From a virus, in the IMG/VR virus record IMGVR_UViG_3300018081_000002, positions 1-48,449 of that record: a stretch of DNA of 48,449 nt, one strand, 5' to 3'. The notes under the pieces were generated by a model. That model searched no databases, had not been told where the DNA came from, and was given only the letters and a program-made list of their open reading frames with translations. The stretch's first letter is position 1; the number at the start of each line of letters is the position of its first letter. Made by a program: the position numbers and the translations under genes. Below are positions 4,287 to 34,754 of this stretch, in pieces.

Positions 4287-4656
4287 CTTGGTGGGGGGTA
4301 ACGTCTTCCCCGGATGTTACCTCCTCCCTATGTCCCCTTGCGTTGTAACCCGCCCTCTTCAAAGCCTTGTACAACGTCGTCTCATCCAACTCCAGCTCCC
4401 TGCTCAAGCTTAGAACGCCCTGCGTCTGGATCCTCTCCAACAGGGCCGGCGTGATCTCCAGCTTGAGGTTGTTCGGCCCGCCTGGCGGCTTGGGCCTTAT
4501 GTCGTGTCGCTTCAGCTCGGCCCGGACGGTGTTCACGCTAATAGCGAAGCGCATGGCCAGTTGACCCACGCTGTGCTTGTTGTAGAGAACCTGCCACATG
4601 TGTTGTGTGTCCTTATACCCTAGCTCCTGTGCTATCCTCTCCCACTGTATCGCCAT
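4264..4656 (-). CDS. Helix-turn-helix DNA-binding protein
   Basis: A 130-residue protein with two HTH-like segments. The first, near residues 27-52, carries the motif SVGQLAMRFAISVNTVRAEL. The second, near residues 84-106, carries LSLSRELELDETTLYKALKR. A Pro-rich linker separates them and the acidic tail is Glu/Ser-rich. The ATG at 4656 follows AAGGA by about eight bases. It is the last gene of the leftward operon, 10 bases after the DUF3987-like gene. Copy 4288-4300 of the dispersed repeat lies in its 3' coding end and encodes Thr-Pro-His-Gln. It is one of two HTH proteins here that might bind that repeat, which is speculation. It could also be a small-terminase-like or homeodomain-type protein. 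Confidence 0.7.
   Translation of the reverse strand: MAIQWERIAQELGYKDTQHMWQVLYNKHSVGQLAMRFAISVNTVRAELKRHDIRPKPPGGPNNLKLEITPALLERIQTQGVLSLSRELELDETTLYKALKRAGYNARGHREEVTSGEDVTPHQVSEEEAS
4288..4300 (+). repeat. Dispersed G-tract repeat, copy 1
   Basis: Exact TTGGTGGGGGGTA, followed by ACGTCTTCCCC. It lies in the convergent junction: two bases after the stop of the rightward gene and inside the 3' coding end of the leftward HTH gene. Confidence 0.9.
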
Positions 4657-4666
4657 ATAAGTGTCC

Positions 4667-6052
4667 TTAGGTGTTGAAGGCCCATCCCTCGGTCGTGAGG
4701 AAGTAGGTGTGAGTCGGCGCGTCGTACTCGACCAGGCCAGCGGACTTCAGGGTCTCTAGCAGCTCCCTGAACTCCCTCTGCCTCATCCGATTGCTGTTCA
4801 TCCGGAGCCAGTCGCTGTGGAGCAGCTTCCCACCCTTCCGCTTCAGCTGTGTCAGCAGCCTCGCTTGATCCTCTCCGAAGGCGTTCTGGTTCATCTCTCC
4901 GAAGGCGCCTGGGAGGAACAGTTCCAGCCATTCCAGAATCTGGAGTGCCCGCTTCAGGTGACTCGGAGTGAGGACCAAGGAACTTCCGCCACTCGCTGAG
5001 AGGATCATTGCCAGGCGGATCAGGTGATCCGGCTTCCGTTCGTTGTACCCAGCGAACTGCTTGTCGGTATTGGTGGACTCCACCCTGTTGAGATACCAGT
5101 TGTCGTACCACTCCTCCGCTTCCGGGGTCATATGGAACTCCCCCCGTAACTCGTGCAGCTCACGGAGGCGCTGGACCAGCCGACTTTCCAGGTCCTTGTC
5201 CATGGCCGGGGGACGGGGGAAGACGCGGGGAGTGTCGTGTTGGATTACGAAGAGGAGCCTGGACATAAACCCCCCACCAAATGCGTCCCTCGGAATGGCG
5301 GTCTGGATCCAGTCCATGGTGGAGCAGGCTAGCATGCTAAACGCTGCGTTGTACAGGATCACCTCTCCCCTCGTGATCGTCACGCTCTTAAACTCCTTCG
5401 GGCAGTCGAACAGCGCCGTCAACAGCGGGATCATCCCCTCCTGATACTTCTGCTTGCCGAGGAAGACAGCGAACTCCGGAGCGTAGATCGTGGCGATGCT
5501 TTCCGTCTTGTCTTGGAATGCGGCCGTTAAGGCCTCGGGTGTAGCCTTATCAGCAAGGACAGTACCACCTCCTTTCCGCAAGAGGGACATGGCAACGTTA
5601 CAGGCGCTAGTTTTTCGACACTTGCCGGAGGGTGCGACGATGAGTACTGCAAGGTTAGGGTATATCTGGTAGGCCCCTTTGTCGTAGTAGACGTTTCGTC
5701 CGAGTACGGATCCAATCGCCACACACCCTGCGAAGAAATGGAAGACATCAGGAGGCTCCGTGTTGAGGGTGAAGAGCATGTAGTCCGAGAGCCAGGTCTG
5801 CGCTGGTACCAGGGACATGAAGTCGGGTATCCGCTTCTTCTTCATGTCCAAGGCGGTCGTCAATTCCGTGTCGCTGAGGTGAAAGCTGAGCTGCATCGCA
5901 CGGAGTAGCTCTGGTGGTCGAGAGGCGGGGGGTAGTAACAAGACCCACTCGAGGACTTGGTTGTAGAGCGCGCCACCACGGACGTCGTTGACTCCCTGTA
6001 GGAACTCCATCAGCTTCGCGATCTGCTGGCTGATTGGGAGTGCCGTCTTCAT
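4667..6052 (-). CDS. DUF3987-like phage ATPase (primase/helicase-associated)
   Basis: A 461-residue protein from the ATG at 6052. The start is chosen because it overlaps the dpdA stop as ATGA, the pattern used throughout this operon; a longer frame to 6091 exists. Residues 140-149 read APSGKCRKTS, a variant P-loop close to the R-K-S/T type of the DUF3987/YfjI family. Upstream is a conserved helical segment ending VFHFFAGCVAIGS. The C-terminal 90 residues look like a winged helix (QREFRELLETLKSAGLVEYD). DUF3987 proteins usually occur in replication modules, where they may act as helicase or primase partners. No other replicative helicase is recognisable here, so this may fill that role. Downstream by 10 bases is the HTH gene. 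Confidence 0.65.
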   Translation of the reverse strand: MKTALPISQQIAKLMEFLQGVNDVRGGALYNQVLEWVLLLPPASRPPELLRAMQLSFHLSDTELTTALDMKKKRIPDFMSLVPAQTWLSDYMLFTLNTEPPDVFHFFAGCVAIGSVLGRNVYYDKGAYQIYPNLAVLIVAPSGKCRKTSACNVAMSLLRKGGGTVLADKATPEALTAAFQDKTESIATIYAPEFAVFLGKQKYQEGMIPLLTALFDCPKEFKSVTITRGEVILYNAAFSMLACSTMDWIQTAIPRDAFGGGFMSRLLFVIQHDTPRVFPRPPAMDKDLESRLVQRLRELHELRGEFHMTPEAEEWYDNWYLNRVESTNTDKQFAGYNERKPDHLIRLAMILSASGGSSLVLTPSHLKRALQILEWLELFLPGAFGEMNQNAFGEDQARLLTQLKRKGGKLLHSDWLRMNSNRMRQREFRELLETLKSAGLVEYDAPTHTYFLTTEGWAFNT

Positions 6053-6771
6053 ACGAATCTCCGAAGATACGCTATGTTGTAGTACGTGCACGCCAACTCC
6101 TCTCCTGTCAACACGGCGTCCATCCGCAACGGCCCGATTCCCCGTAACTCGATCCCCGGCTCGAAGCGCTTCAGCTTCTGCCCGAACTTGATCGGCTTAC
6201 TAGTGTCCACGCTACCGTGGATCCCCCGTTCCTCGAACATCCCACGGATGATGCGGAGCTCGGAGAGGCTGCTCACACCGAGCAAGTGGTGCCGCACCTT
6301 CACCCGGCTAAACAGGTGTAGGCTCTCCTTCAGCCACACTTCCCTCGCTTCCTTGAACGGCCAGAAGAACCAGCTGCACCCTCTCGAGAGAGCTGCACTG
6401 ATGAACTGCGCCCTGAGATGCGGCTCATTCCCCGTAACCACGATCCCGACGGGAAACTCCCCTTTCATCACTTCCACAGTCTCTTCCCACTGCTCCCAGT
6501 TCCACGTCCGTTCCCCCAACTTGTCCGGCGCAACGACTACGGTAGGCTTTATCTCCCTCGCGGCCAAGCGGAGCTCGATGGGCGACAGGGGCACCCCTAG
6601 CTCGTGGAAGCTGTTGTCGAGGATGACCTCCCTCTTCCTCTCTCCCATCTCCCTGTAGAAGCTGGCGTAGCGCCGGTGGTCCAGGACCATGTGAGCGAGG
6701 GCGAAGTCCATCTCGCAGAGGGGGCTCAGATCGCTGAGGTGAGCCACGGGGATCTCCATGCACAACTTCAC
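6049..6771 (-). CDS. dpdA: DpdA-like 7-deazaguanine DNA transglycosylase
   Basis: A 240-residue protein resembling the short, phage type of tRNA-guanine-transglycosylase-like TIM barrel. Visible elements are VILDNSFHELG (residues 49-59, containing the presumed catalytic Asp), VVVAPDKLGE (78-87), GIVVTGN (109-115), HHLLGVSS (161-168) and GSVDTSKPIKFGQ (186-198). Known DpdA enzymes exchange guanine in DNA for preQ0 made by FolE, QueD, QueE and QueC, and all four are encoded in the same operon, which supports the call strongly. GTG 6771 overlaps the previous stop as GTGA; ATG 6759 is an alternative. It lacks the zinc site of tRNA TGTs, but the gene immediately upstream encodes a four-cysteine protein. 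Confidence 0.75.
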   Translation of the reverse strand: MKLCMEIPVAHLSDLSPLCEMDFALAHMVLDHRRYASFYREMGERKREVILDNSFHELGVPLSPIELRLAAREIKPTVVVAPDKLGERTWNWEQWEETVEVMKGEFPVGIVVTGNEPHLRAQFISAALSRGCSWFFWPFKEAREVWLKESLHLFSRVKVRHHLLGVSSLSELRIIRGMFEERGIHGSVDTSKPIKFGQKLKRFEPGIELRGIGPLRMDAVLTGEELACTYYNIAYLRRFV

Positions 6772-7001
6772 TTCGCCACCTCCACATTTACCTCGACACA
6801 GATGCTTCCCACAACCTCGCGATGCCGGTTCTTGTCCAGGAGGAACGCCATCACGCTGCCGCAGCGGACGCACTGATACGCTGGGTGGAGCGTCTCCTCC
6901 GCTCGTCCCAGAAGCGTCACGTTGTACACCTTGGTAAAGCAGCCACAGTGGCAGGTCTCACAGTGGATGTGGGTTTCCCTCTCGATCTCGCCAATCTTCA
7001 T
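6768..7001 (-). CDS. Small zinc-ribbon protein coupled to dpdA
   Basis: A 77-residue protein with cysteines arranged as CETCHCGC near residues 14-21 and CVRC near residues 45-48, a likely zinc ribbon. The ATG at 7001 overlaps the polymerase stop (ATGA), and its own stop overlaps the dpdA start (GTGA), so translation of the three genes is probably coupled. The function is unknown. Because this DpdA lacks an obvious zinc site of its own, a partner or specificity subunit is an attractive but untested idea. Confidence 0.65.
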   Translation of the reverse strand: MKIGEIERETHIHCETCHCGCFTKVYNVTLLGRAEETLHPAYQCVRCGSVMAFLLDKNRHREVVGSICVEVNVEVAK

Positions 7002-9490
7002 AATCCGAGCTCCTTCCGAAATGTCGCCTGGGCCTCGCCCTCCAACTTCGTCTCCATCCAATTCCGCGGCCCGAAGCTCGGCTCGGCGGGCACGCGCCAA
7101 CCTTGCGGATAGAACTTGCGCACTGTAGCGGGATCTCGTGAAGCTTCCACGATTTCCGGCCATTGCCTCTGCATCACAGCTGTAAGGCATTCCGTTGCCT
7201 CCTTTACCACGTCCCTGTGACTCACGACCACGAGCTCGTCATGCACCGTCAATCTGACCGTCGCTCCCTTCGGAAGCTGCTCGTCGGCCTCCCGGATCGC
7301 GACGTACATCATGTCCGCTCCGGTACTTTGCGGGGGGAAGTTGTACATCTCTGTCACTTGCCTGGTGTACCACCACCTCCTCCGGCCAAACGGATTTGCC
7401 AGGAAGTGTTGCCGTTCCACCTGCTCCTCGAGGCCCTTCCTCCACTTCTCGTACACGTGGTACTTCGTGAAGAAGCGGAAGAGGAACCCTTCCACCCACG
7501 TCTTACTCGTCCCTAGTTGCTGGGCTATGGATTGGGCTCCCCTTCCGTAACCTAGTCCGTAGACGATGAACTTCGTGGCGTATCTGTAATTATACTGCTT
7601 TCCTGGGACGAGGTCCCGTACACGTGAAAGAGGGAGACCGAAGCCTTCGGCAGCTGTAACCTCATGAATGTCCGCACCAGCTGCCAGAAGGCTGAGGCCG
7701 TAAGGGTCGCCCGAGAGCGCCATCGCAATTCGCCACTCGACCTGGCTCCAGTCCACGCTGATGAAAACGTGATCCGGTGTGTCAGGGATGTAGATCTCCC
7801 GTAGCTTCTTCGGTATGTTCTGAGCGTTCGGGTCCCAGCTATTGATACGTCCAGTCGCCGCTTTAGCACAACCAAATCTCGGGTGGACGAAGCCCTCGTC
7901 ATCTGTCTCTACCTCCAAATTCGTGCTCACGGTGTGATACGCGCTTCGCACCTCGTTGATGAGCCCCAGGATCTTGTTCTCCGGGAACTTCTCCACGAGG
8001 GCCTCGACTGCGCCGGCGTTCGCTGTCGGCCTCATTCCTCCCTTCTGGTCCTTGGTGTATTGGACTGGAAGGCCCAACTTGTCGTACAGCAGCTTCATCA
8101 GTTCCTTGGGACTCTGCACGTTCAGGTTGGGCATACCTACCGCGTCCCGTAGCATCTGCTCGTACTTCGCAGCGCCGATGAGCATCCCCTGCGCCCACAT
8201 CTCCGCCTTGTCCACATCCTTCCGAATTCCCCGATCGGCCATGCGACGGAGGATTGGTTGCAGGGGCATCACGTTGTTGTAGAGGAGGTTATCCATCCCC
8301 ATATTGTGGATCTCTTGTCGGAGACCCAGGTAAGACCTGGTGGTCGCATCGACGTCCTTCGCGCAGCCTGTGGCCAGTCCAACCTCATCACCCTTGTACA
8401 TAGAGTCATCTTTCCAGTGCTCCATGTCGGTGTAGAAGGTCTTGATGGTGTCCAGTGACTTTGGAAGGTCACTGTTTGTGAGGTGGAACATGAGCATCGT
8501 GTCACAGGTGTTCGGCGCTATGTGCCAATTTTCTCCGGTTGCTTGTTGACGCTTGCGTTCGAAGAGGGGCCAGTCGTAGGACTCGCTGTTTTGTCCGACC
8601 TTAACAATCGTAGGATTTGTGAGGAGCCCGTAGAGTAGGCGCTGAGCTTCAAGGGTCCAACGGAAAACGCGAGCACGACCTTGGGCCGATCCGACCCCGT
8701 AGCACTTGATGTGAGCTTCATCGAGGTCGAGGCTCGTTGTCTCGGCGTCGACGCTGATGAAGCCGGACTCCTGGGCTTCTCTTCTAACAGCAGCTGCGTG
8801 ATCCGCAGCATCAGGGAGGATGGAATACTCCACTGCGACGCGACGGACTTCCCGGAACTCGCTCTCTTTCTTCGCTTTGACGAGGTCCCAGACGACGACC
8901 GGCCAGAACGTTTGCGTACGCATGACGAACGCGGGGTGAAACGTGGGGAGAACCTTCCTTCCTCCAGCGCCCTCAATAGGGATGCCGCGATAGCTGCCGA
9001 TCTCTGCCTTTCCTGTAGTGACGTAGAGAGCAGTCGCTCCGACAGGGACGAGGAGTTTGGGGTTGACGAGTTTGAGCTCGTTGACGAGGTAGCGGGCACA
9101 CCACCGGATTTCTTCATCATCAGGCTTCCTGTTCTTGGGAGGCCGACACTTCACGGCATTGGTTATGTAGATGTCGTCCCTACGAATGCCCGCTTGGCCC
9201 AGCAGCGCAGTGAGCACACGGCCAGACCCTCCTACGAAGGGAAGGCCCCTTCGGGCCTCCTCCTCGCCGAGGGCTTCTCCCACGAGCATCATGTCCGCAT
9301 TGGGTGGGCCGACACCATAGGCGTACCCCTCACCAATCTCGTAGAGGGGGCAGCCTATGCAATCCTTCGGCTTGGGGCCCGTGACCAGCTTCACCTGGCA
9401 TACGGGACACAGCCCTGTGTTCGGGTGCAGATCCGCCGTAGCGGCCTTGCCGTCCGGCCCCGCTTTGCAGACGGAGTTTTGGCACTTCAC
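6998..9490 (-). CDS. polA: Uracil-DNA glycosylase / family A DNA polymerase fusion
   Basis: An 830-residue replicative polymerase. Residues 1-220 form a family 4-type uracil-DNA glycosylase: GEALGEEE (71-78), NAVKCRPPKNRKP (111-123) and HPAFVMR (185-191), with Cys44, Cys47, Cys115 and Cys131 spaced as 4Fe-4S ligands. A 3'-5' exonuclease domain follows (DAETTSLD at 248, VGQNSESYD at 298, AKDVDAT at 377). The polymerase domain has motif A SVDWSQVEWRIA (578-589), motif B RYATKFIVYGLGYG (636-649) and motif C VHDE (749-752). It would copy the genome and may scan the template for uracil. GTG 9490 overlaps the upstream stop (GTGA). All catalytic residues I can check are present. Confidence 0.93.
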   Translation of the reverse strand: MKCQNSVCKAGPDGKAATADLHPNTGLCPVCQVKLVTGPKPKDCIGCPLYEIGEGYAYGVGPPNADMMLVGEALGEEEARRGLPFVGGSGRVLTALLGQAGIRRDDIYITNAVKCRPPKNRKPDDEEIRWCARYLVNELKLVNPKLLVPVGATALYVTTGKAEIGSYRGIPIEGAGGRKVLPTFHPAFVMRTQTFWPVVVWDLVKAKKESEFREVRRVAVEYSILPDAADHAAAVRREAQESGFISVDAETTSLDLDEAHIKCYGVGSAQGRARVFRWTLEAQRLLYGLLTNPTIVKVGQNSESYDWPLFERKRQQATGENWHIAPNTCDTMLMFHLTNSDLPKSLDTIKTFYTDMEHWKDDSMYKGDEVGLATGCAKDVDATTRSYLGLRQEIHNMGMDNLLYNNVMPLQPILRRMADRGIRKDVDKAEMWAQGMLIGAAKYEQMLRDAVGMPNLNVQSPKELMKLLYDKLGLPVQYTKDQKGGMRPTANAGAVEALVEKFPENKILGLINEVRSAYHTVSTNLEVETDDEGFVHPRFGCAKAATGRINSWDPNAQNIPKKLREIYIPDTPDHVFISVDWSQVEWRIAMALSGDPYGLSLLAAGADIHEVTAAEGFGLPLSRVRDLVPGKQYNYRYATKFIVYGLGYGRGAQSIAQQLGTSKTWVEGFLFRFFTKYHVYEKWRKGLEEQVERQHFLANPFGRRRWWYTRQVTEMYNFPPQSTGADMMYVAIREADEQLPKGATVRLTVHDELVVVSHRDVVKEATECLTAVMQRQWPEIVEASRDPATVRKFYPQGWRVPAEPSFGPRNWMETKLEGEAQATFRKELGL

Positions 9491-9780
9491 ATCTTCCTCC
9501 GTCTCTTGTTATCCTCGATCCACCCTTGCACAGCGTCGAGCATCCCCTCCCTCTCGCTGTTGGAGATCCAGAACACAGCTCCCCGACCCTTCGGAGCAGC
9601 TTCGTTGACTCCGAAGGGAACGAGGAACAGTCCCCAACCCCAGTCCTCGGGCACCTCCTCGTCGATCAGGGTGGCAAGGGTGCGGAGTGCCCGCTCGATG
9701 TACTCGTCGCGGACCTGGTATCGCTCGTCAGGTGTTTGCGGGGGGTATTGTTGCCGCTTCTTCCCGTTGCTCTGTTTCAT
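9487..9780 (-). CDS. Hypothetical phage protein
   Basis: A 97-residue protein with a Lys/Arg/Gln-rich N-terminus, a central helical segment (EYIERALRTLATLIDEE) and a conserved-looking core (RGAVFWISNSEREGMLDAVQGWIE). I recognise no family. It overlaps folE upstream (ATGA) and the polymerase downstream (GTGA). A degenerate copy of the dispersed repeat lies in its first 15 codons. Confidence 0.6.
   Translation of the reverse strand: MKQSNGKKRQQYPPQTPDERYQVRDEYIERALRTLATLIDEEVPEDWGWGLFLVPFGVNEAAPKGRGAVFWISNSEREGMLDAVQGWIEDNKRRRKM
9736..9747 (+). repeat. Dispersed G-tract repeat, degenerate copy
   Basis: TTGCGGGGGGTA followed by TTGTTGCC: one base shorter and altered in the TGGT part, but with the same G6-TATTGTT core and flank. 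It lies in the 5' coding end of the leftward 97-residue gene. Confidence 0.5.
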
Positions 9781-10367
9781 CTCGCTTCCACCCTCGGATA
9801 CCCGATCATCCGGAGGAACTCATCCCTTGTGGGGTGATTGGTCATGAAGAGCCCTCTCATGGCGCTTGACACTACGTCCGCGTCGCTACGGACTCCCCGA
9901 TGCCTCATGCAACCATGCCTTCCCACAACAACGACTCCAGCGCCTTTCGCATCTGTGGCGTGTTGGAGGAGATCGACCACTGCGTCGGTGTACGTCTCCT
10001 GCATGATGGGTCCTGTGAGAGGCTGTTCAGCAACACGTGCCAGCTTGGAGAGACCGAGGACCTCTTTATGCGGAATGTAACCGACGTACACACGCATCTC
10101 CACCGGAACGAGATGGTGCGGGCAGACTCCATGCACAACATGTCCCCGTAGAATAACCATGGAGTCGTGTTGTTCGGGGAAGGTGGCGAAGCTGTTGTGC
10201 CTGGGAGTAAACAGCTCTCGGTACATACGTGTGACGCGCGCGGGCGTGTCCTTGTAATTACGATCACTGAGATCCACTCCCATTCCCTCCAGCAGGAGTT
10301 TGACCCCCTGCTGGAGTTTCTTGTCGTCGAACCGGTTGGTGGGGGGTAACGTTTCCCGTTTCTTCAC
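9777..10367 (-). CDS. folE: GTP cyclohydrolase I
   Basis: A 196-residue protein that converts GTP to dihydroneopterin triphosphate, the first step towards preQ0. The zinc site is visible: CPHH at 82-85 and Cys153 in HGCMRHRGVR. The core GYIPHKEVLGLSKLARV is typical of the family. The GTG start at 10367 overlaps the previous stop (GTGA), so residues 7-12 (LPPTNR) are encoded by an antisense copy of the dispersed repeat. That extra N-terminal segment would not disturb the fold. It works with QueD, QueE and QueC encoded upstream in the same operon. Extra supply may bypass a limiting host step. Confidence 0.93.
   Translation of the reverse strand: MKKRETLPPTNRFDDKKLQQGVKLLLEGMGVDLSDRNYKDTPARVTRMYRELFTPRHNSFATFPEQHDSMVILRGHVVHGVCPHHLVPVEMRVYVGYIPHKEVLGLSKLARVAEQPLTGPIMQETYTDAVVDLLQHATDAKGAGVVVVGRHGCMRHRGVRSDADVVSSAMRGLFMTNHPTRDEFLRMIGYPRVEAR
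10336..10348 (+). repeat. Dispersed G-tract repeat, copy 2
   Basis: Exact TTGGTGGGGGGTA followed by ACGTTTCCC. It lies within the first 12 codons of leftward folE, antisense to it. Confidence 0.9.
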
Positions 10368-10558
10368 TGCTCTTCCTCGACCTCAAGCTGGTCCAGAGCC
10401 TTGTTGAGCCACAAGCATCCCTGCTCGAGGTTGGTGACAGCGAGTGAGAGCTCACGGGATTGAATCTCCTTCGGTTGGAGCTTCAGACTGCCAATGTGAG
10501 CGAGAACGATGTCGTGCACTTCACGGAGTCCGGATTTGGTATACCAGTTAATCGGCAT
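10364..10558 (-). CDS. Acb2-like small hairpin-domain protein (putative anti-CBASS sponge)
   Basis: A 64-residue helical protein. Its C-terminal half, with SRELSLAVTNLEQGCLWLNK at residues 34-53, matches my memory of the Acb2/Tad1 hairpin domain, where a pattern like REL-ALT-LE-A-W-N is conserved. Acb2 proteins bind cyclic di- and trinucleotides and so block CBASS defence signalling. The gene lies between queE and folE and overlaps folE by GTGA. The family call rests on pattern recall, not a search. The N-terminal half (INWYTKSGLREVHDIVLAHI) also fits a helical hairpin. Confidence 0.55.
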   Translation of the reverse strand: MPINWYTKSGLREVHDIVLAHIGSLKLQPKEIQSRELSLAVTNLEQGCLWLNKALDQLEVEEEQ

Positions 10559-10562
10559 GGCT

Positions 10563-11195
10563 TCACCTCACGTTCAGGAACTTGTGGAACTGGTTGCTAA
10601 GGCGGAGCTCCGGGTGCCTGTCCACCAGCCCGAGTGCCTCGTCCAGCGCGAGAGGGTCGATGAAGTGTTTCAGGTTCCGAGGCTGCAGGTAGACCAGCTT
10701 GCCTTCCCTGGCCCACACGACAGCTTGCTCCACGCTGGGCCACCCTGTCGGATCGTCTCCTAGGCCCCCCAAGATAACCTTGACCTCGTTGGCCATCTCG
10801 ATCATGAAGGGTAGGTAGCCCGGCTTGGGAGACACAGTGATCCAGTTAAGGGAGCCGTGGCGTTGGGGATCGTACTTCACGGTCCCCGAGGTTTCCACGT
10901 GGACCACGATCCCCTCCTCGTGAGCCGCGTCCACGAGGGGCTTGAGGCTCCGGTCGAGTGGCTCTCCACCTGTAAGACAGATCGTATCGTAGGGGAGCGA
11001 CCACGTAGCGAGCTCCGTGGGATCGTACAACCCCCCACCAAGCTCGGGATATGGCTTGTCGAAGTCCGTGTCGCAGTGAGTGCACACCCCCTGTCCCACA
11101 CTACATCCTACAAGCCTGATAAAGGCCATCGGGGCCCCGGTGTAGAGGCCTTCTCCCTGGATGCTCTTGAAGCGCTCGGCGAGTGGATACTTCAT
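10563..11195 (-). CDS. queE: 7-carboxy-7-deazaguanine synthase (radical SAM)
   Basis: A 210-residue radical SAM enzyme that converts 6-carboxytetrahydropterin to 7-carboxy-7-deazaguanine. The N-terminus FKSIQGEGLYTGAPMAFIRL is diagnostic, as is TGGEPL for the SAM-binding region. The cluster cysteines are spaced C-x6-C-x2-C (CSVGQGVCTHCDTDF), not the common C-x3-C-x2-C. The ATG at 11195 overlaps the queD stop (ATGA). A GGTGGGGGGTT stretch at 11031-11041 encodes the ELGGGLYD segment and is probably coincidental to the dispersed repeat. Confidence 0.92.
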   Translation of the reverse strand: MKYPLAERFKSIQGEGLYTGAPMAFIRLVGCSVGQGVCTHCDTDFDKPYPELGGGLYDPTELATWSLPYDTICLTGGEPLDRSLKPLVDAAHEEGIVVHVETSGTVKYDPQRHGSLNWITVSPKPGYLPFMIEMANEVKVILGGLGDDPTGWPSVEQAVVWAREGKLVYLQPRNLKHFIDPLALDEALGLVDRHPELRLSNQFHKFLNVR

Positions 11196-11620
11196 ACACG
11201 CCCCTTTATCAGGTATACTTCCCTGTTAACCCGATCCGTGGTAGCCCATCCACCATCGGACTCCATCACTCTGACCTCCTTCACGCTATACGAGAGGTCC
11301 TGCATGTGGTTGAACATCAGGCTCGAGATGTGCTCCGCGCTAGGGTTCCTCGTGAGGAGCATGTAGCGGTTCTCACTGTTCTCGAAGAAGGCTTGGGCCG
11401 GATCCCCCTTGATCAGGAGCATTGTGTGGTCCAAGGTGTCGAGCAGCTTCCGCATGTCCCTTTTAATCACGGTGAAGTCCGTCACGAGGCCCACCGCGTC
11501 CGGGTTGCCCATCACCGTGACCTCGAACACGTAGTTATGTCCGTGGAGATTTGCGCACAGTCCCTCGTGCCCCAGAAGCCTGTGTCCCATGGCGATTGTC
11601 ACTCTTGCCGTACAATTCAT
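11192..11620 (-). CDS. queD: 6-carboxytetrahydropterin synthase
   Basis: A 142-residue T-fold protein of the QueD/PTPS family, the second step of the preQ0 pathway. The zinc ligands His13 (MGHRL) and His26/His28 of CANLHGHNY are present, as is the catalytic Cys22. Later motifs include VTDFTVIKRDM, LDHTMLL and EVRVMES. The ATG at 11620 has an AAGGAG ribosome binding site immediately downstream of a repeat copy. The ATGA overlap with queE suggests coupled translation. Confidence 0.93.
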   Translation of the reverse strand: MNCTARVTIAMGHRLLGHEGLCANLHGHNYVFEVTVMGNPDAVGLVTDFTVIKRDMRKLLDTLDHTMLLIKGDPAQAFFENSENRYMLLTRNPSAEHISSLMFNHMQDLSYSVKEVRVMESDGGWATTDRVNREVYLIKGRV

Positions 11621-12164
11621 CGAGCGTCTCCTTGGTGGGGGGTATTGTTGCCCCCTGTTCGAACAATGGGTCGTGAAAGAACCCGTTCTCCAACTGATGC
11701 GACAGCACCATCAGGCCCCATCCCGCGGCCCCGATGTGGTCGTCCACCTCGAGCAGGCTGTTCATCCCCTCGCACAGTTCTTGCATACGCTCTGGCCAGG
11801 TTCCTTCTTGTTGGGCAACGTAAGCTAGGCCCCGGCGGAAAGCGTCCTGCAACGTCAGGAGGTGCGCGATCGTGTGATTCAACACGTCCGAGGTTGGGAG
11901 GCCCTTCTCCCAGTTACCCTCTCCGTATTTTAGAGCCCCACCATCCGCCTGGCCAGATTCGTCGGCGTGCCCAGTTGCACGCTCTGCGATACGCTCGATC
12001 AGGGAGTGGACCACGAGGTCGTACCTGACCACTCGGCCGCTGCGTTTCGCGCCTGTAGGATAGGTGTGCATTCCAGCCCCTTGACTTACGGAGGCAGTCG
12101 GGGCACTCGAGCCAGTAAGATCCCGGAGCCGCGGGAGATCGTCTAGGTCCTTGTCTCTCGGCAT
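11535..12164 (-). CDS. DUF5664-like (dATP/dGTP diphosphohydrolase N-terminal) protein
   Basis: A 209-residue frame. The central part resembles the DUF5664 family: TGAKRSGRVVRYDLV, then ALKYGEGNWEKGLPTSDVLN and later DDHIGAAGWGLMVLSH. Family members include phage enzymes or helpers that hydrolyse purine dNTPs, as in the Z-genome phage S-2L pathway. Here it could trim the dNTP pool, which is inference. The ATG at 12164 has GGAG about eight bases upstream; the ATG at 12071 would begin directly at the conserved part. The 3' end overlaps queD by 86 bases, a long overlap, and the last 30 residues look like low-complexity read-through. The first 31 residues conflict with a competing frame at 11914-12231. 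Confidence 0.6.
   Translation of the reverse strand: MPRDKDLDDLPRLRDLTGSSAPTASVSQGAGMHTYPTGAKRSGRVVRYDLVVHSLIERIAERATGHADESGQADGGALKYGEGNWEKGLPTSDVLNHTIAHLLTLQDAFRRGLAYVAQQEGTWPERMQELCEGMNSLLEVDDHIGAAGWGLMVLSHQLENGFFHDPLFEQGATIPPTKETLDELYGKSDNRHGTQASGARGTVRKSPRT
11632..11644 (+). repeat. Dispersed G-tract repeat, copy 3
   Basis: Exact TTGGTGGGGGGTA followed by TTGTTGCCCCC. On the leftward strand it lies directly before the queD ribosome binding site and inside the 3' end of the DUF5664-like frame. Confidence 0.9.
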
Positions 12165-12247: not shown

Positions 12248-12260
12248 TACCCCCCACCAA
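12248..12260 (-). repeat. Dispersed G-tract repeat, copy 4 (left arm of inverted pair)
   Basis: Exact element on the minus strand. Together with 12268-12280 it forms a perfect 13-bp inverted repeat with a 7-base loop (GTCTGCG) in the gap between two leftward genes. Confidence 0.92.
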
Positions 12261-12267: not shown

Positions 12268-12280
12268 TTGGTGGGGGGTA
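12268..12280 (+). repeat. Dispersed G-tract repeat, copy 5 (right arm of inverted pair)
   Basis: Exact TTGGTGGGGGGTA followed by ACGTTGTTTG. It is the second arm of the 13-bp inverted repeat with 12248-12260. It is followed at 12291-12305 by a separate hairpin, TAGGCC-GAA-GGCCTA, that contains the stop codon of the next leftward gene. Confidence 0.92.
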
Positions 12281-12290: not shown

Positions 12291-12305
12291 TAGGCCGAAG
12301 GCCTA
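12291..12305. other. GC-rich triloop hairpin at a stop codon
   Basis: TAGGCC-GAA-GGCCTA is a 6-bp stem with a 3-base loop. On the leftward strand its first three bases are the TAG stop of the DUF669-like gene. No T-run follows, so it is not a standard terminator. Confidence 0.6.
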
Positions 12306-12701
12306 CCGGGCGATGTCCGTGGGGAGGTACTTCACGACCTTGTTACGGTCGCTGTAGCCGGCCTGCCCCTTCTCGGTGGTGATGGCAGCGCAGACCTCGA
12401 GCTGGAGGAGCTGGTCGGTATCGTCCAGCGTGTCGTCCTCACCCCAGCCGAGGGCGTCCTTGAGGAGCTGGTCGAGCTTGAAGGTCTTGCCCTTCGCCAG
12501 CGTCAGGATGTCCCACACCGCGCGACCGAGCCACTCGCCCTCGTCGACGCACTTGAGCATGAGGTTGATGTACGGCTCCTTCCCCTCGCCCTGCGCCTTC
12601 TTGATCTCGGCGCGGTCGATGCGGAAGGTGTAAACGGCGTCCGGCATGAGGCTGGACGCGAGGTCTCCGGTGCGGACGGGTCCGCCAGGCAGTTGTGCCA
12701 T
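12303..12701 (-). CDS. DUF669-like, possible ssDNA-binding protein
   Basis: A 132-residue protein with the layout of DUF669 phage proteins: an early beta strand (YTFRIDRAEIKKAQGEGKEP), the YINLMLKCVD-W-GRAVWDILTL core and a C-terminal strand with RNKVVKYLP. In many phages this family sits beside a RecA-like ATPase and a nuclease and is thought to bind single-stranded DNA; both neighbours occur here. Its ATG at 12701 overlaps the ATPase stop as TAATG. Confidence 0.65.
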   Translation of the reverse strand: MAQLPGGPVRTGDLASSLMPDAVYTFRIDRAEIKKAQGEGKEPYINLMLKCVDEGEWLGRAVWDILTLAKGKTFKLDQLLKDALGWGEDDTLDDTDQLLQLEVCAAITTEKGQAGYSDRNKVVKYLPTDIAR

Positions 12702-13552: not shown

Positions 13553-13779
13553 TACGCTATATCCCCTCTCTTCCCCGTGACCGCGAAGCTGATCCGCCCA
13601 CCGACCGTGGTGAGGTGGACCATGTCTGTCCACGGAATCCAGACGTGCGTGCCGGGCTTACGCTGTGCCACCTCGAGGATCACCCCGAGGTCGCTGTAGC
13701 GGAGGCGGACACGAGCTACCTCGTGTCCGTCCTCGTACAGTGTGAGGGCCTCGCCCGGCTTAATTTGCGGGGTCGCCAT
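13552..13779 (-). CDS. Hypothetical small protein
   Basis: A 75-residue, probably all-beta protein (ALTLYEDGHEVARVRLRYSD, THVWIPWTDMVHLTT). I do not recognise it. The ATG at 13779 lies 20 bases inside the GroES-like gene; an AAGGA lies only two or three bases ahead of it, so the start is uncertain. It ends as TAATG with the ATPase start. Confidence 0.55.
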   Translation of the reverse strand: MATPQIKPGEALTLYEDGHEVARVRLRYSDLGVILEVAQRKPGTHVWIPWTDMVHLTTVGGRISFAVTGKRGDIA

Positions 13780-14230
13780 CTTCCTTGTCCGCCTCGGCCA
13801 CGAGCTCGCCGAGATCCTCGAGGGCGTTCTCGATGCCCACGAGGTCGTCATCCGTCAGCGTCGTGTTCTCCGGAACCACGCTGTCGATCAGCTTGCCCAC
13901 TTCTTCCTTCAACTCGTCTCTGAACATGTTGTCCTCCAATACGGCCAGGATGCTGTGCTCGGGAAGGAGCCACAGATCGAGGCCGTGTAGCGTGAATGGC
14001 CGCCCTGACAGTTTCTCGATTACCACCTTGCAGCCGCTAAGAAGTGGTTCACCGCCCCAGTAGTCCCAGTATCCGCCGGGCTCATGGAGATGGACGTAGC
14101 CCCAGACTGACAGTTCCTCGTAGTGCGGAGGGAGCACGATCAGGCCACTGGGCGTTCTGTCTACGATTGGGTCACGAGTGATGAGCACGTGACCCGGGAG
14201 AATCTGGATGGAAAGGTTACCCCCCACCAA
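13760..14230 (-). CDS. GroES-like co-chaperonin
   Basis: A protein of up to 156 residues whose first 105 resemble Cpn10/GroES. The N-terminal strand IQILPGHVLITRD parallels the start of GroES, SGLIVLPPHYEELSVWGYV matches the GGIVLP region before the mobile loop end, and SGRPFTLHGLDLWLLPEHSILAVLED matches the C-terminal closing strands. The acidic tail after residue 115 is unusual. It would cap the host GroEL to fold a phage protein such as the capsid, as T4 gp31 does. There is no ATG: the frame begins TTG GTG inside a dispersed repeat copy, so translation may start in the repeat or at a GTG further in. Confidence 0.7.
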   Translation of the reverse strand: MVGGNLSIQILPGHVLITRDPIVDRTPSGLIVLPPHYEELSVWGYVHLHEPGGYWDYWGGEPLLSGCKVVIEKLSGRPFTLHGLDLWLLPEHSILAVLEDNMFRDELKEEVGKLIDSVVPENTTLTDDDLVGIENALEDLGELVAEADKEDGDPAN

Positions 14231-15158
14231 CGGCCTCCTTCTTCTGGGTGAGGATCGAGGGATCGTCTACGTAGTCCCTCTTACGGGGGATGTAGGCCAT
14301 CCGCCGGATCGGGTTGTCCTTGAGGCACAGGTCCCGGAAGTAGCAGGTGCCGTAGGAGAAGCACTCGTTCGTGTTCTTGTAGAACACCTGCTTCCAGTCC
14401 TCACCCTCCTTCACCCGTCGGTGTCGCCACCGAATTTCCCGGGCGATCTCCACGAACTCCCGCTCAAACTCCTCCAGCTCCTCGTCCGTCCGGATGAAAC
14501 GTTCGCGGTGGAACTGAGGCACCTGGGTTTTGACGAGGACGTTCACGATCACGCCGGCCACTCGGACCGGACGTCCACTCTCCTGTGTCAGCTTCTTCGT
14601 GATGGCGTACGTGTAGGCCGTCATCTGGAGGTCCATCTCGTACTTAAGCATGTCCCTGGGATCCAGCCTCGCCGCGGTCTTGTGGTCCACGATCCAGAGC
14701 ATCTTGTCCTGGAGTGCGAGCTCGTCCGTTCGGAACACGAGGAACACGTTTGTCCCTGTCCCGATCTCCACGCGCCCCGCTACCTCGAGACCGATCGGCT
14801 TCCACGGATTGTAGTCACTCTTGTAGTGTTCGTAGTACGCTGGGAGCATCTTCTCCATCAGCTCGATGTGCTCGTTGACGATGCCCTCGTCTCCGGGGAA
14901 CTTCCCTTCGGGCATCTGCTTCCGGAACGTCGCGATGCCGTGTGAGAGGGCGTCGTTCATGTCCATCTTCCCTGAGGCCACCTCCGCTAGGGCCGCGTGG
15001 ACCGCGGTTCCGAAGCTGAGAGCGTACGTGGGCCTGTCCGGCTGTAGATGCTCGTGGTAGAACCACCCGTACTTCCGGTGGCACCGGAGGAAGGTCTGAA
15101 CCCGAGATTGGTTCAGGTTGATCACTTGGTCGTCGACCTCAAGGTCTAGGAATGACAT
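14217..15158 (-). CDS. PD-(D/E)XK nuclease, Cas4/RecB-like
   Basis: A 313-residue protein from ATG 15158 (GAGGG six bases upstream). The N-terminal SQSRVQTFLRCHRKYGW and ALSFGTAVHAALAE are typical of PDDEXK_1/Cas4-like phage exonucleases. The nuclease core shows LWIVDHKTAARLD (D-x-K) with an upstream FRTDELAL. Cysteines in RCHRKY and ECFSYGTCYFRDLC could bind an iron-sulphur cluster. It probably acts with the adjacent ATPase and DUF669-like protein in recombination or end processing. Its TAA stop is supplied by a dispersed repeat, so the last residues (VGGG) are repeat-encoded. Confidence 0.85.
   Translation of the reverse strand: MSFLDLEVDDQVINLNQSRVQTFLRCHRKYGWFYHEHLQPDRPTYALSFGTAVHAALAEVASGKMDMNDALSHGIATFRKQMPEGKFPGDEGIVNEHIELMEKMLPAYYEHYKSDYNPWKPIGLEVAGRVEIGTGTNVFLVFRTDELALQDKMLWIVDHKTAARLDPRDMLKYEMDLQMTAYTYAITKKLTQESGRPVRVAGVIVNVLVKTQVPQFHRERFIRTDEELEEFEREFVEIAREIRWRHRRVKEGEDWKQVFYKNTNECFSYGTCYFRDLCLKDNPIRRMAYIPRKRDYVDDPSILTQKKEAVGGG
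14218..14230 (-). repeat. Dispersed G-tract repeat, copy 6
   Basis: Exact element on the minus strand, sense to its neighbours. It contains the stop codon of the PD-(D/E)XK nuclease and the only in-frame upstream start codons (TTG, GTG) for the GroES-like gene. Confidence 0.92.
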
Positions 15159-23331: not shown

Positions 23332-23357
23332 ATACTACAACTATTTCACCCCCTGTC
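23332..23357 (-). promoter_or_regulatory. Repeated promoter-like element
   Basis: The minus strand reads GGTGAAATAGTTGTAGTAT followed by GTGG, closely matching GGTTAAATTGTGATAGTAT followed by GTGG at 24069-24088. Both lie upstream of the ribosome binding site of a small leftward gene. Confidence 0.45.
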
Positions 23358-23687: not shown

Positions 23688-23866
23688 TAGAATCTCCTCG
23701 CTGCTGCGATTGTTGCCGTTGCCGTCCTCTCAGGCGACCACTTCGCCTGATAAGCCTTCTGAAAGTCGAAGTCCTGAAATGCCTCTGAGTCTAGACCGGT
23801 CTTCTTGATGAGTAGAGCCTCGACGCACTGCTTCCAGAGAGCGTACTCCATCCGCTTGTTCGCCAC
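23687..23866 (-). CDS. Hypothetical small protein
   Basis: A 59-residue protein from GTG 23866, which overlaps the preceding TAG stop (TAGTG) and has GGAG about eight bases upstream. Sequence features: MEYALWKQCVEALLIKKTGL and DFQKAYQAKWSPERTATAT. Not recognised. Confidence 0.55.
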   Translation of the reverse strand: MANKRMEYALWKQCVEALLIKKTGLDSEAFQDFDFQKAYQAKWSPERTATATIAAARRF

Positions 23867-24695: not shown

Positions 24696-25271
24696 ATGAC
24701 GAACCAGTCTCCAGTCCCGGTGTACGGCGAGTACGTTCCGGCCGGTTGGCACATCTTGATGGCCACAATCTGCGATGTGCCCGGCGCTACGGTGCCAGAA
24801 CTCGCCCAAACGGTGGGAGTTTCGCCCGCTACAATCCGCACCTGGCGCAAAAAGCCCGAGTTTCAGCGCTTTCAGGCCTGGTACATCCAGACGTTCTACT
24901 CCCAACAGGCGCTTCCCAGCCAACTTCCGCCTGGCGGCGCGGTCCGGGAAAGGCGTCAGTTCAAGGAAGAGCTGTCGGATTTCGCGATCGACATGTTCGA
25001 CCGGCTCCAAGACATCGTCGAGAACACGACGGACGAGAAACTCCTGACCCAGATTGCGCATGATGCGCTCGATCGGGCGGGATACGTGGCGACCCGCAAA
25101 GTGGAAACGCGGGCCCAGGTCATGATGCTCACGCCGGAGCTCCTTGACATGCTCAACAAGCGGGCTCTCGAGGCCGGGGAACAGCCTATTTTGGTGGGGG
25201 GTAACTCTTCCCCTAACATTTTGGTGGGGGGTATACCTTCCGAGGCTGTTTCCCTCGTAGAAAAGCCCTGA
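24696..25271 (+). CDS. terS: Terminase small subunit
   Basis: A 191-residue protein with an N-terminal helix-turn-helix (TVPELAQTVGVSPATIRTWR, about residues 33-52) and a helical middle that would form the oligomer (ERRQFKEELSDFAIDMFDRL). It recognises phage DNA for packaging. The large subunit follows with a TGATG overlap. The C-terminal 25 residues are encoded by two tandem dispersed repeats 30 bases apart, giving ILVGGNSSPNILVGG, an unusual tail probably not part of the fold. Confidence 0.8.
   Translation: MTNQSPVPVYGEYVPAGWHILMATICDVPGATVPELAQTVGVSPATIRTWRKKPEFQRFQAWYIQTFYSQQALPSQLPPGGAVRERRQFKEELSDFAIDMFDRLQDIVENTTDEKLLTQIAHDALDRAGYVATRKVETRAQVMMLTPELLDMLNKRALEAGEQPILVGGNSSPNILVGGIPSEAVSLVEKP
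25191..25233 (+). repeat. Tandem dispersed G-tract repeats, copies 13 and 14
   Basis: Two exact elements (25191-25203 and 25221-25233) with identical ATT leaders, exactly 30 bases apart, both in frame in the 3' end of terS. Confidence 0.93.
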
Positions 25272-26978: not shown

Positions 26979-27098
26979 ATGTTGGTGGGGGGTATTGTTT
27001 TCGCACTTACAATGGCGTTCATCATCCACTGCCCGATCTTCAAGCCGTGGTTCGGCTTCCGCCGTCCACCTGGGCACAGGGGTCGGTGGTTCCAGTGA
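26979..27098 (+). CDS. Small peptide encoded through a dispersed repeat
   Basis: A 39-residue frame starting right after the terL stop. Its N-terminus MLVGGIVFALTMAFII is hydrophobic and residues 2-5 come directly from the repeat at 26982-26994. The C-terminus is basic (FRRPPGHRGRWFQ). It overlaps the next start as GTGA, which supports translation. No separate ribosome binding site is seen. It may be a leader peptide or a tiny membrane protein. Confidence 0.45.
   Translation: MLVGGIVFALTMAFIIHCPIFKPWFGFRRPPGHRGRWFQ
26982..26994 (+). repeat. Dispersed G-tract repeat, copy 15
   Basis: Exact TTGGTGGGGGGTA followed by TTGTTTTC, five bases after the terL stop. Confidence 0.92.
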
Positions 27099-27205
27099 CA
27101 ATTCTCGAAGTTGCTGTCCTCCTCATCGTCATCACGTTCGTCTTCCTCTTCCTAGGCGCGTTGTACATGATCAAGAGCAAGGGGCGCAACGGCCGCGATC
27201 GCTAG
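27095..27205 (+). CDS. Small single-span membrane protein
   Basis: A 36-residue frame from GTG 27095 (overlapping the previous TGA). One transmembrane segment, VAVLLIVITFVFLFLGALY, is followed by a strongly basic tail (KSKGRNGRDR). The shape fits a pinholin or small lysis accessory but its position between terL and the portal is unusual for a lysis gene. The next dispersed repeat begins directly after its stop. Confidence 0.55.
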   Translation: MTILEVAVLLIVITFVFLFLGALYMIKSKGRNGRDR

Positions 27206-27218
27206 TTGGTGGGGGGTA
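27206..27218 (+). repeat. Dispersed G-tract repeat, copy 16
   Basis: Exact TTGGTGGGGGGTA followed by TTGTTTCC and then the ATG of the next gene. It abuts the preceding stop codon. No other ribosome binding site is present, so the G6 run may pair with the anti-Shine-Dalgarno sequence through one G-U pair. Confidence 0.92.
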
Positions 27219-29451: not shown

Positions 29452-30259
29452 GGTTGACGAGAACGGGATCATTACGGAGGGGCGATTCCAGGGGTACCGT
29501 GCCGTAGACGTGCTCGAGTTCGCGGAGTCGGTGGAAACAAACTCCGCGGGCGGGGAAGGCACGCCTCCAGGAGGTACAGCGCCCAGGCCCCCTCTGGATC
29601 CGAGTGCAAAGCTCAACGCAGACTCCACTGGTCGGGTGGACAGGACAATGATGCTCCTGGCAAGCCAGCAGGAGAAAGCGGACGAGGATGCATTCGCCGC
29701 GACGGTGTCGGATTACGATCGGCCGGTTCCCGGACTCGTGCCCGAGAAGACCTACAGGCAGGTAATCGCGGAGACCAAGGCGGGGATGAGCATCGAGCAG
29801 CGGATCCAACAGGGATTCCACCGGCGGGTGTACATTCTGGTGAAAACTCAGCAGGACCCGGACGCAATGGCCCGAGTGGTCAGGCGGGACCCTGAGCCTA
29901 CACCCGCAGAAGAGGAAGAGGCTGCAGAGGAACCTACTCCCTCCCCTCGTAACGAGGTCCCCGATCTTCCGCCCGAGCCGAAACCTGCGGCAAAAGCGGC
30001 CCCTCCCAAGAAGGCCTCTGGACCTGCGGCCCCGACCCCGGGGGCTCGGGCGGAACCCAAGGCGTCGGCCAAGCCGACCCTGCAGCTCAACGACAAGATC
30101 CGCCGTTTCACGAAGAAGATGGGCCTCAACGAGGGCGAGTACCTGTTGGAGCTCCAACGCCGTGGCTTTACCCAGGCGGATGTGGACAGATATAGCACTG
30201 GTGTTGGTCCCACGAGGCCCGCTGGTAGAAAGAGTGTGTTTGACTATGTCGATGAATGA
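29444..30259 (+). CDS. Putative capsid scaffolding protein
   Basis: A 271-residue acidic protein with a Pro/Ala/Glu-rich middle (TPAEEEEAAEEPTPSPRN, PPKKASGPAAPTPGARAE) and a compact C-terminal domain (LNDKIRRFTKKMGLNEGEYL), typical of scaffolds whose C-terminus contacts the coat. It sits between portal and capsid genes, the usual place. No family motif is decisive. Confidence 0.6.
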   Translation: MPKVDENGIITEGRFQGYRAVDVLEFAESVETNSAGGEGTPPGGTAPRPPLDPSAKLNADSTGRVDRTMMLLASQQEKADEDAFAATVSDYDRPVPGLVPEKTYRQVIAETKAGMSIEQRIQQGFHRRVYILVKTQQDPDAMARVVRRDPEPTPAEEEEAAEEPTPSPRNEVPDLPPEPKPAAKAAPPKKASGPAAPTPGARAEPKASAKPTLQLNDKIRRFTKKMGLNEGEYLLELQRRGFTQADVDRYSTGVGPTRPAGRKSVFDYVDE

Positions 30260-30680
30260 CAGGCTTTTCGTACCCAAGCCCGAGGCCGGCTGGCGCTATC
30301 GGTGGGTGAACACCCGGGACCACGTAGTTCGTGAAAGGTTGTCGCAGGGGTTCGAATTCGTCACGGACCCCGAATCACCCTTGCCCCCAGGGACCGCGGT
30401 GGCCCTAGGGCAACAGACAGGATCTCCTGCAGCGGGCGGGAGTATCACGCGTGGGGACGTCGTCCTCATGCGGATGCGTAATGAGGCCTTCGAGGAGAGA
30501 ATCGCAGCCCCGAAGCGCGAAGCACGAGAGCGGCAGAAAGCCTCCTTCGACACCATGGTCGCGCAGTCAAACGAGAATGCGCAGCGGCTCATGCGGGCCG
30601 CAGGCCTGAAGGGTGTACCCAAGCAAGTGGTTTACGAGACCTCGAGCGAAGCCTCGTTCGAGGAAGACTCGAAGAAGTGA
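30246..30680 (+). CDS. Hypothetical head-region protein
   Basis: A 144-residue protein from ATG 30246 (an ATG six bases later is possible). Its start, RLFVPKPEAGWRYRWVNTRD, resembles small proteins found next to scaffolds in other phages, followed by GFEFVTDPE and a charged helical end. It may act in capsid assembly, which is inferred from position. Overlaps the scaffold gene by 14 bases. Confidence 0.55.
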   Translation: MSMNDRLFVPKPEAGWRYRWVNTRDHVVRERLSQGFEFVTDPESPLPPGTAVALGQQTGSPAAGGSITRGDVVLMRMRNEAFEERIAAPKREARERQKASFDTMVAQSNENAQRLMRAAGLKGVPKQVVYETSSEASFEEDSKK

Positions 30681-30698: not shown

Positions 30699-30711
30699 TT
30701 GGTGGGGGGTA
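30699..30711 (+). repeat. Dispersed G-tract repeat, copy 17
   Basis: Exact TTGGTGGGGGGTA followed by TCTCTTCC, between two rightward genes and upstream of a separate AAGGAGG ribosome binding site. It is preceded by a small GCC-TTC-GGC hairpin (30681-30689). Confidence 0.92.
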
Positions 30712-30736: not shown

Positions 30737-31246
30737 ATGCCAACGCAAGCGAAGTTTGAGTTCCGCTCTGTGCGGACCATCTTCGGGACACCGATACCCA
30801 AGCAGCACTTTCCCGAGGGTGCAACGGAGACGTTCAAGAAGGGCGCTGTCTGTTTCGTAGGAACAGACGGAATGCTCACGGAGTGCGCGGCGGCGCCGGC
30901 ACTCGTGATGGGCATCGCGACAGCGGATGCGAAGAACACGACCGCGGAGGGCAAGGTCAACCAGATCGTGGAGCTTGCCAGTCCCGGGGTCCTGTACCGA
31001 GGGTACTTGGACACGATCGCGTCGGAAGGGACCGGCGTCGGCACGCTGGCCATGATCGGACAGGCTCACGGTGTCGTGAAGTCGGCCACCGGGGGAATCT
31101 GGTTCGTCAGCACAACGGACATCACGAACGATCAGGTCGTGATCTGGCAGTTCTGGGACGGGGACAACAACAAGTTCGACGACCAGCGTTCACACGTTCT
31201 TTTCCACTGGAATTCCTCCAAGTGGCAAGGGAACGTCGGATACTAG
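30737..31246 (+). CDS. Putative capsid decoration or head protein
   Basis: A 169-residue protein just before the major capsid gene. ATG 30737 has AAGGAGG seven bases upstream, a very strong site that suggests high expression. The sequence is beta-rich (FKKGAVCFVGTDGMLTE, ALVMGIATADAKNTTAEGKV) and resembles capsid-stabilising proteins that precede the coat gene in other podoviruses. The role is inferred. Confidence 0.6.
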   Translation: MPTQAKFEFRSVRTIFGTPIPKQHFPEGATETFKKGAVCFVGTDGMLTECAAAPALVMGIATADAKNTTAEGKVNQIVELASPGVLYRGYLDTIASEGTGVGTLAMIGQAHGVVKSATGGIWFVSTTDITNDQVVIWQFWDGDNNKFDDQRSHVLFHWNSSKWQGNVGY

Positions 31247-33077: not shown

Positions 33078-33090
33078 TTAGTGGGGGGTA
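33078..33090 (+). repeat. Dispersed G-tract repeat, variant copy
   Basis: TTAGTGGGGGGTA (one mismatch) followed by TTGTTTCTGG, directly after a stop codon. Confidence 0.8.
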
Positions 33091-33653: not shown

Positions 33654-33666
33654 CTGGTGGGGGGTA
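33654..33666 (+). repeat. Dispersed G-tract repeat, variant copy
   Basis: CTGGTGGGGGGTA (one mismatch), directly after a stop codon. Its GGGGGTATC pairs with GATACCCCC seven bases later to make a 9-bp hairpin (33660-33684). A second small hairpin (CCTCC-TTTC-GGAGG) follows and covers the AGG likely used as the ribosome binding site of the next gene. Confidence 0.8.
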
Positions 33667-33883: not shown

Positions 33884-33886
33884 GCC

Positions 33887-34123: not shown

Positions 34124-34125
34124 CG

Positions 34126-34740
34126 ATGGCCAGACGCACGTTCACGGACGCCTCGGCGGAGCTGCTCCTGCGCTTGGGGAACAGAAGTGATGCGTTGGAC
34201 GCCCTGCGGGAGCAGTGGTTGAACGACGCGATGTTCAAGTGTGGGATGCAGTACGACCATCGGGAGCTGCAGCGGACTACGTCCCTTCCTCTCCTCGCGG
34301 ACACGGATACCGTGCCCACCCCTGCCGGGATGTGGTGGCCTGAGTGGTTGTACAATGAGACGGATGGGCGGCCCGTGACGGTCGGGGACAGGGACCTGAT
34401 CGAGGCTGTGGACAAGCAGACCACCACCCCCACCCGCTTCTATACGTGGGGCAACGCCTTTTTCTTCAACTCCGTTGCGGACGTGCAGAAGTCAATCCGT
34501 CTGTACTACGTGGAGAAGCCTCTCCGATGGGTCGGCGCGGCACAGTTGCCCTACGACGAGAATTACGACATCTTGGTGATGATGTGGGCGACGAAGCTGG
34601 GCCTCACGGCGCTACGGGATCTGGAGGAGGCTGGCGCTGTGGGCCAAGAGATCGGGATGTACACGAGCGGAATGCGATTCCCACTAAGGGAGCAGAGGAA
34701 GAACGACCGGCTGACCGGTGTCCAGGTGAAGTTCCGCTAA
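34126..34740 (+). CDS. Head-tail connector / adaptor protein
   Basis: A 204-residue protein whose position (after capsid genes, before the tail genes) and composition fit the adaptor or tail-tubular A group: LLLRLGNRSDALDALREQWL, WWPEWLYNETDG and DENYDILVMMWATKLGLTAL. It would seal the portal and attach the tail. No decisive motif is seen. Confidence 0.55.
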   Translation: MARRTFTDASAELLLRLGNRSDALDALREQWLNDAMFKCGMQYDHRELQRTTSLPLLADTDTVPTPAGMWWPEWLYNETDGRPVTVGDRDLIEAVDKQTTTPTRFYTWGNAFFFNSVADVQKSIRLYYVEKPLRWVGAAQLPYDENYDILVMMWATKLGLTALRDLEEAGAVGQEIGMYTSGMRFPLREQRKNDRLTGVQVKFR

Positions 34741-34741
34741 C

Positions 34742-34754
34742 TTGGTGGGGGGTA
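34742..34754 (+). repeat. Dispersed G-tract repeat, copy 18
   Basis: Exact TTGGTGGGGGGTA followed by TTGTTTT and then the ATG of the next gene, one base after the preceding stop. As at 27206, no other ribosome binding site is visible. Confidence 0.92.

Follow-up and report, generated by a model that had tools for sequence, protein, structure and literature searches.

Dispersed copies of an asymmetric 12-mer in a metagenomic phage genome as candidate operator or stoperator-like sites

Why does one 12-bp word, TTGGTGGGGGGT, recur between and within the genes of the phage genome IMGVR_UViG_3300018081_000002? We refer to the whole 48,449-nt stretch as the window; its gene calls were made in this analysis, the phage is known from environmental DNA only, and all relatives compared with it (G numbers below) are metagenomic contigs, part of them incomplete. 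The nearest full-length relative is G007 (IMGVR 3300027533_000006, 49 kb, ~83% DNA identity to the window). Based on the comparisons described here, we put a probability of about one half on the copies being distributed operators or stoperator-like sites for a sequence-specific phage protein, most likely the winged helix-turn-helix (wHTH)/coiled-coil protein encoded at 19602–19946.

An exact scan of the window finds 20 copies of the word (12 plus-strand, 8 minus-strand) and no occurrence of the reversed word; ~0.006 copies are expected by chance, the same figure as in a preliminary description of this DNA. With up to two mismatches there are 29 matches, versus 6.1 in dinucleotide shuffles. All 18 exact copies listed in the preliminary description are real, but its minus-strand starts are off by up to 1 base and it overlooked the minus-strand copies at 5269 and 11030, so that its 12/6 strand split becomes 12/8. 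Two of its variants, 33078 and 33654, have one mismatch each, and its entry at 9736 corresponds to 9735, with two. In a set of 62 distinct sites drawn from the window and its close relatives, the 12-mer hardly varies (1.8–2.0 bits per base), A follows it at position 13 in 77%, a weak T/C-rich tail (0.1–0.6 bit) spans positions 14–21 and no conservation is seen upstream of the 12-mer; the flanking consensus proposed earlier is therefore real but weak. With 20 exact and ~5 variant copies, the element is an asymmetric site of ~13 bp repeated 20–30 times, as in the stoperators of Cluster A phages. The listed sites are as follows.

4288–4299, plus strand: exact, at the end of tail gene 2259–4286 and inside the 3′ end of helix-turn-helix (HTH) gene 4264–4656 (minus strand); conserved in G007.
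5269–5280, minus strand: exact, inside the primase gene; conserved in G007.
9735–9746, plus strand: variant with 2 mismatches, near the start of gene 9487–9780 (minus strand); G007 has a one-mismatch copy there.
10336–10347, plus strand: exact, just inside the folE start (9777–10367, minus strand).
11030–11041, minus strand: exact, inside queE.
11632–11643, plus strand: exact, 12 bp upstream of the queD start (11620, minus strand).
12249–12260, minus strand: exact, half of a head-to-head pair after gene 12303–12701 (minus strand); pair conserved in G007.
12268–12279, plus strand: exact, head-to-head partner of 12249.
14219–14230, minus strand: exact, at the stop of gene 14217–15158 and the start of gene 13760–14227.
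19711–19722, plus strand: variant with 1 mismatch, inside the wHTH gene; exact in G007.
19974–19985, minus strand: exact, half of a head-to-head pair that lies 28 bp before the start of the wHTH gene.
19992–20003, plus strand: exact, head-to-head partner of 19974 upstream of the wHTH gene.
21462–21473, plus strand: exact, tail-to-tail with 21541; G007 keeps the pair, with a diverged spacer.
21541–21552, minus strand: exact, tail-to-tail with 21462.
21862–21873, minus strand: exact, inside gene 21776–22396 (minus strand).
24669–24680, minus strand: exact, between a conserved TATAAT-like stretch and the terS start.
25191–25202, plus strand: exact, at the terS 3′ end, upstream of terL; motifs of other sequence there in G015, G016, G017 and G039.
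25221–25232, plus strand: exact, the second upstream of terL; absent in G007.
26982–26993, plus strand: exact, after terL; present in G004, absent in G007.
27206–27217, plus strand: exact, immediately past the stop of 27095–27205 and just upstream of the ATG at 27227.
30699–30710, plus strand: exact, between genes 30246–30680 and 30737–31246; absent in G007 and G004; another motif at this junction in G017.
33078–33089, plus strand: variant with 1 mismatch, at the 33077/33125 junction; exact in G007.
33654–33665, plus strand: variant with 1 mismatch, at the 33652/33701 junction.
34742–34753, plus strand: exact, the last before the tail region, between the stop at 34740 and the ATG at 34762; another motif at this junction in G016.

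An indication of function is retention of the sites in G007. That genome has 22 exact copies of the word and is letter-perfect at 15 of the 18 window copies that can be aligned, versus 21–23% retention for a random 12-mer (P about 1e-7). Conservation is independent of strand and reading frame: it extends to the copies inside primase and queE, on either strand. Pairs are retained while their spacers have changed; that of 19974/19992, for instance, is 6 bases in the window and 3 in G007. G007 lacks four window copies (25221, 26982, 30699 and 34742), two of which are clean indels, and these four are gains or losses relative to it. Because the sites are retained at synonymous positions and on both strands, the comparison points to a double-stranded DNA site under selection rather than an RNA element or neutral repeat. 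The preliminary description had proposed looking for the motif at matching positions in relatives; the persistence of sites at orthologous positions, inside codons and on both strands, favors the protein-binding site among the roles it offered, and the L5 stoperator parallel is the best of its options. The two genomes are circularly permuted with respect to each other, the ends of the G007 record joining at window ~23342–23861. Also highly conserved is the non-coding stretch at 24500–24650 between the gene blocks, which carries a CAGATGCTTCCAGCATCTG palindrome and a TATAAT-like box and is probably a divergent promoter region.

Placement is biased toward gene ends. Fourteen of the 20 exact copies lie within 60 bp of one, versus 26% at random, and the 18 kb of tail genes contain no copy (P 1e-4). 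Nine copies nevertheless fall inside called genes, versus 0.04 expected under synonymous codon resampling. The earlier view that the word marks gene boundaries thus holds for about two thirds of copies but not for those at 5269, 11030 and 21862, deep in genes. In the rightward late block all eight copies, variants included, are oriented with transcription. Those at 26982, 27206, 30699, 33078, 33654 and 34742 follow a stop codon by no more than 20 bases, as had been stated for this block, whereas 25191 and 25221 are inside the terS 3′ end. Leftward-block copies occur in both orientations, at the starts of folE, queD and other genes, inside genes and as inverted pairs. The correlation of orientation with transcription that characterizes Cluster A sites is therefore seen in the rightward block but not in the leftward block, where orientation is mixed.

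Which protein might recognize the sites? There are two candidates.

19602–19946, minus strand: candidate binding protein of 114 amino acids, winged HTH plus C-terminal coiled coil; Pfam Rv2175c_wHTH 2.5e-5, below the curated cut-off.
4264–4656, minus strand: second candidate, tandem-HTH protein of 130 amino acids, present in nearly all relatives.

The 19602–19946 protein combines a winged HTH with a helix predicted at its C-terminus, and scores under the curated cut-offs for Rv2175c_wHTH (24.6 versus 27.1 bits) and HTH_17 (20.0 versus 27). Its gene is 94% identical to the G007 homolog in nucleotides and 96% in amino acids. Three window sites lie within this gene or no more than 60 bp from it (P 0.006), and the gap upstream holds the inverted pair 19974/19992. 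Homologs are few in number. They occur in G015, G017 and G039, each with its own dispersed word; none is found in ten other long relatives, and G024 has a possible degenerate remnant. G052, picked up by the protein profile scan alone, has no other gene in common with the window in a tblastn comparison of 20 kb; it has a few palindromic CACAATCCTAGGATTGTG sites, one adjoining the end of its wHTH gene. Co-occurrence of protein and repeat is partial: repeat-strength scores are 83, 55, 34, 22 and 14 with the protein versus a median of 12 without it (Mann–Whitney P 0.01), and most relatives that lack the protein also lack a strong repeat, with G022 and G019 as exceptions. Among isolated phages, none encoding the candidate protein was found.

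TTGGTGGGGGGT does not occur in any of 22 records of more distant relatives, whose terL or primase is about 46–60% identical. G017 instead has GTAGAGGTACTAA, ~14 copies including variants, all facing with transcription and several directly before a ribosome-binding site; copies flank terL on both sides (terS/terL and downstream of the gene), precede portal, occupy the 30680/30737 junction and follow the capsid gene. The G015 word, GTATCTGCTA, has 6 copies, including those at terS/terL, at terL–portal and beside its wHTH gene, and forms an inverted pair directly after the gene-13 homolog, the junction equivalent to window 12249/12268. G039 has TAGCAGGCTC, including one copy at the terS 3′ end, and in G016 GGATC-type repeats occupy terS/terL, a position downstream of terL and the 34126/34762 junction. 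Since these words sit at the same junctions, positions recur among some of the syntenic relatives while the words differ; many other relatives have no strong repeat around terL. The sense-strand words of the window, G015, G039 and G017 are alike (roughly RTRG-RGR-A), a resemblance that is suggestive only, since a few per cent of the time unrelated words could resemble each other equally well. G016, which has no wHTH protein, also contains a tandem array of 12-bp TTGGATCCTTCG units at 16386–16421 and dispersed CACGAAGGATCA, a different repeat system. AAGCCGCTGCAA was noted for G022 and G021, with 12 copies in G022, also within coding DNA. The repeats of G016, G019, G022 and G041 look like different kinds.

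In the operator or stoperator-like model, TTGGTGGGGGGT(A) would be a double-stranded DNA recognition site used ~20–25 times per genome; the predicted binding target of the 19602–19946 or 4264–4656 protein can be written TTGGTGGGGGGTA. From sites at gene boundaries and close to promoters or start codons, the bound protein would regulate transcription in two regions, the leftward early block and, within the rightward late block, the head half, either by blocking initiation, for example at site 24669 just downstream of the TATAAT-like stretch, or by hindering elongation. Autoregulation would act through the inverted pair 19974/19992 ahead of the wHTH gene. Host RNA polymerase is the presumed target, because no integrase, RNA polymerase or sigma factor is named among the scanned proteins. 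The sequences show how many sites there are, where they lie, that they are conserved irrespective of strand and frame, and that they partly co-occur with the protein; we infer both that the 19602–19946 protein is the binder and that its binding represses transcription.

Several observations weigh against this model. Orientation in the leftward block is mixed, unlike that of true stoperators, which fail to repress when reversed (PMC9283540). The wHTH structure model is of low confidence (pLDDT 56). Repeats occur without the protein in G022 (score 44) and G019 (24), and weakly in G016 and G041, whereas the G039 repeat is weak (4 exact copies only) and the G052 sites are few and palindromic. There may be no lysogeny to maintain, since neither an integrase nor a recognized repressor was found among the scanned proteins. 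Several of the statistics were framed after inspection of the data, and the tandem-HTH protein could be the binder instead.

Recognition by that second protein, which like the L5 repressor would have two DNA-binding domains per chain, or by a host factor, is unlikely. Both HTH domains are predicted with fair confidence and would suit a monomer on an asymmetric 12–13 bp site, as shown for the L5-type repressor (PMC9283540), and site 4288 lies within the gene; yet the gene is found in relatives with and without strong repeats alike, and a fold search gives no significant match (repressor structure 7r6r at E 1.9). Pfam, PHROGs and NCBIfam name no L5 immunity repressor homolog among the scanned proteins. 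We think it rather improbable that the word is a promoter or start-associated element, recruiting RNA polymerase through an unspecified sigma factor or activator, or the ribosome through pairing of GGGGGGU with the anti-Shine-Dalgarno sequence. In the rightward block every copy does point in the direction of transcription and precedes a start, genes 27227 and 34762 lack any ribosome-binding site besides the word, motif–anti-Shine-Dalgarno pairing reaches −10.7 kcal/mol versus a gene median of −8.0, and the repeats of Microbacterium Cluster EC, which encodes a sigma factor, are similarly placed 21–30 bp upstream of starts (PMC7302621). About half of the conserved leftward-block copies, however, are oriented opposite to transcription, several are intragenic, no further conservation is seen at −10/−35 distance, and the scanned proteins include no sigma factor or RNA polymerase. 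The orientation of these copies makes both the novel promoter and the RNA element of the preliminary description fit less well. A sigma-54 −24/−12 promoter was rejected by eye, its spacing being one off and the invariant G-run left unexplained.

Action at the RNA level, with paired copies folding into hairpins that serve as terminators, pauses or stability elements, is improbable. Inverted pairs give 13–16 bp stems, and the variation in head-to-head spacing (3 to 7 nt) is of a kind a hairpin tolerates, but most copies are single, sense and antisense copies are equally conserved and Rfam gives no match. TTCG/GAAG-loop hairpins occur near 5 sites versus 0.9 expected in the window, and are few overall. 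Among other genomes the inverted pair was found as one hairpin only, on a Parcubacteria contig, in an apparently ordinary terminator. Similarly low odds attach to Chi-like recombination, replication or genome-organizing sites, bound for example by a DNA-bridging protein. The word contains TGGTGG, as does the Escherichia coli Chi site, and a wHTH with a coiled coil presumably resembles bridging proteins such as RacA; absence from the 18 kb of tail genes, the preference for gene junctions and the conserved inverted pairs do not suit Chi. A neutral micro-repeat spread by recombination is very improbable: compared with G007 and G004, the copies at 30699 and 34742 resemble clean insertions, but letter-perfect retention at most orthologous places, synonymous positions included, largely refutes this option of the preliminary description.

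Among known systems, the operators and stoperators of Cluster A mycobacteriophages (L5, Bxb1) share with the window a short asymmetric site, 20–30 copies per genome, an intergenic bias, an autoregulatory site at the regulator gene and a lineage-specific motif (PMC6550527, PMC9283540). They differ in that the sites here have mixed leftward orientation, occur in coding sequence and form hairpin-capable pairs, and no known repressor homolog or integrase is found among the scanned proteins. By analogy the sites would work like Cluster A stoperators, yet we do not file them there because two defining features, orientation and a repressor homolog, fail. The Cluster K start-associated sequences (SAS/ESAS) are likewise asymmetric, well-conserved 13-bp repeats near starts, and some of them are associated with inverted repeats (PMC3203893), but SAS are typically 3–7 bp away from a start codon, share one orientation almost without exception and are confined to the non-structural half, whereas the present sites lie up to ~47 bp away, on both strands and also among head genes. 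The 18-bp repeats of Cluster EC, a lytic phage group without repressor or integrase, number 12, sit in small gaps and include several in the stretch from terminase to portal (PMC7302621); all are oriented alike, with another sequence. Their pattern, a gap motif in one orientation upstream of the ribosome-binding site, fits the rightward block and G017 but not the leftward block. Junction placement is common to SAS and EC repeats, with EC closest. A binder is established for Cluster A, and none is reported in the SAS (PMC3203893) or EC (PMC7302621) papers.

Dispersed gene-boundary repeats have already been described in several actinobacteriophage clusters; here comparative data name a concrete candidate binder and several presumed cognate site sets, so that a few small proteins and short oligonucleotides would suffice to test directly, in vitro, how such repeats work. 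More tentatively, the wHTH/coiled-coil proteins may form a phage family not detectably related to the L5 repressor, each with its own dispersed sites, words and proteins co-diverging while site positions stay fixed; this would be an independent second origin of a stoperator-like system, in apparently lytic deazaguanine-pathway phages.

The pathway genes lie at window 9777–11620 and 16832–17500 (minus strand), where FolE, QueE, QueD and QueC make up a preQ0 (deazaguanine) synthesis set that most relatives also have. The product of 6049–6771 is DpdA-like by eye, although named by no library, and DNA modification in this phage is plausible from its gene content. At 6998–9490 (minus strand), DNA polymerase A is fused to an N-terminal uracil-DNA-glycosylase domain.

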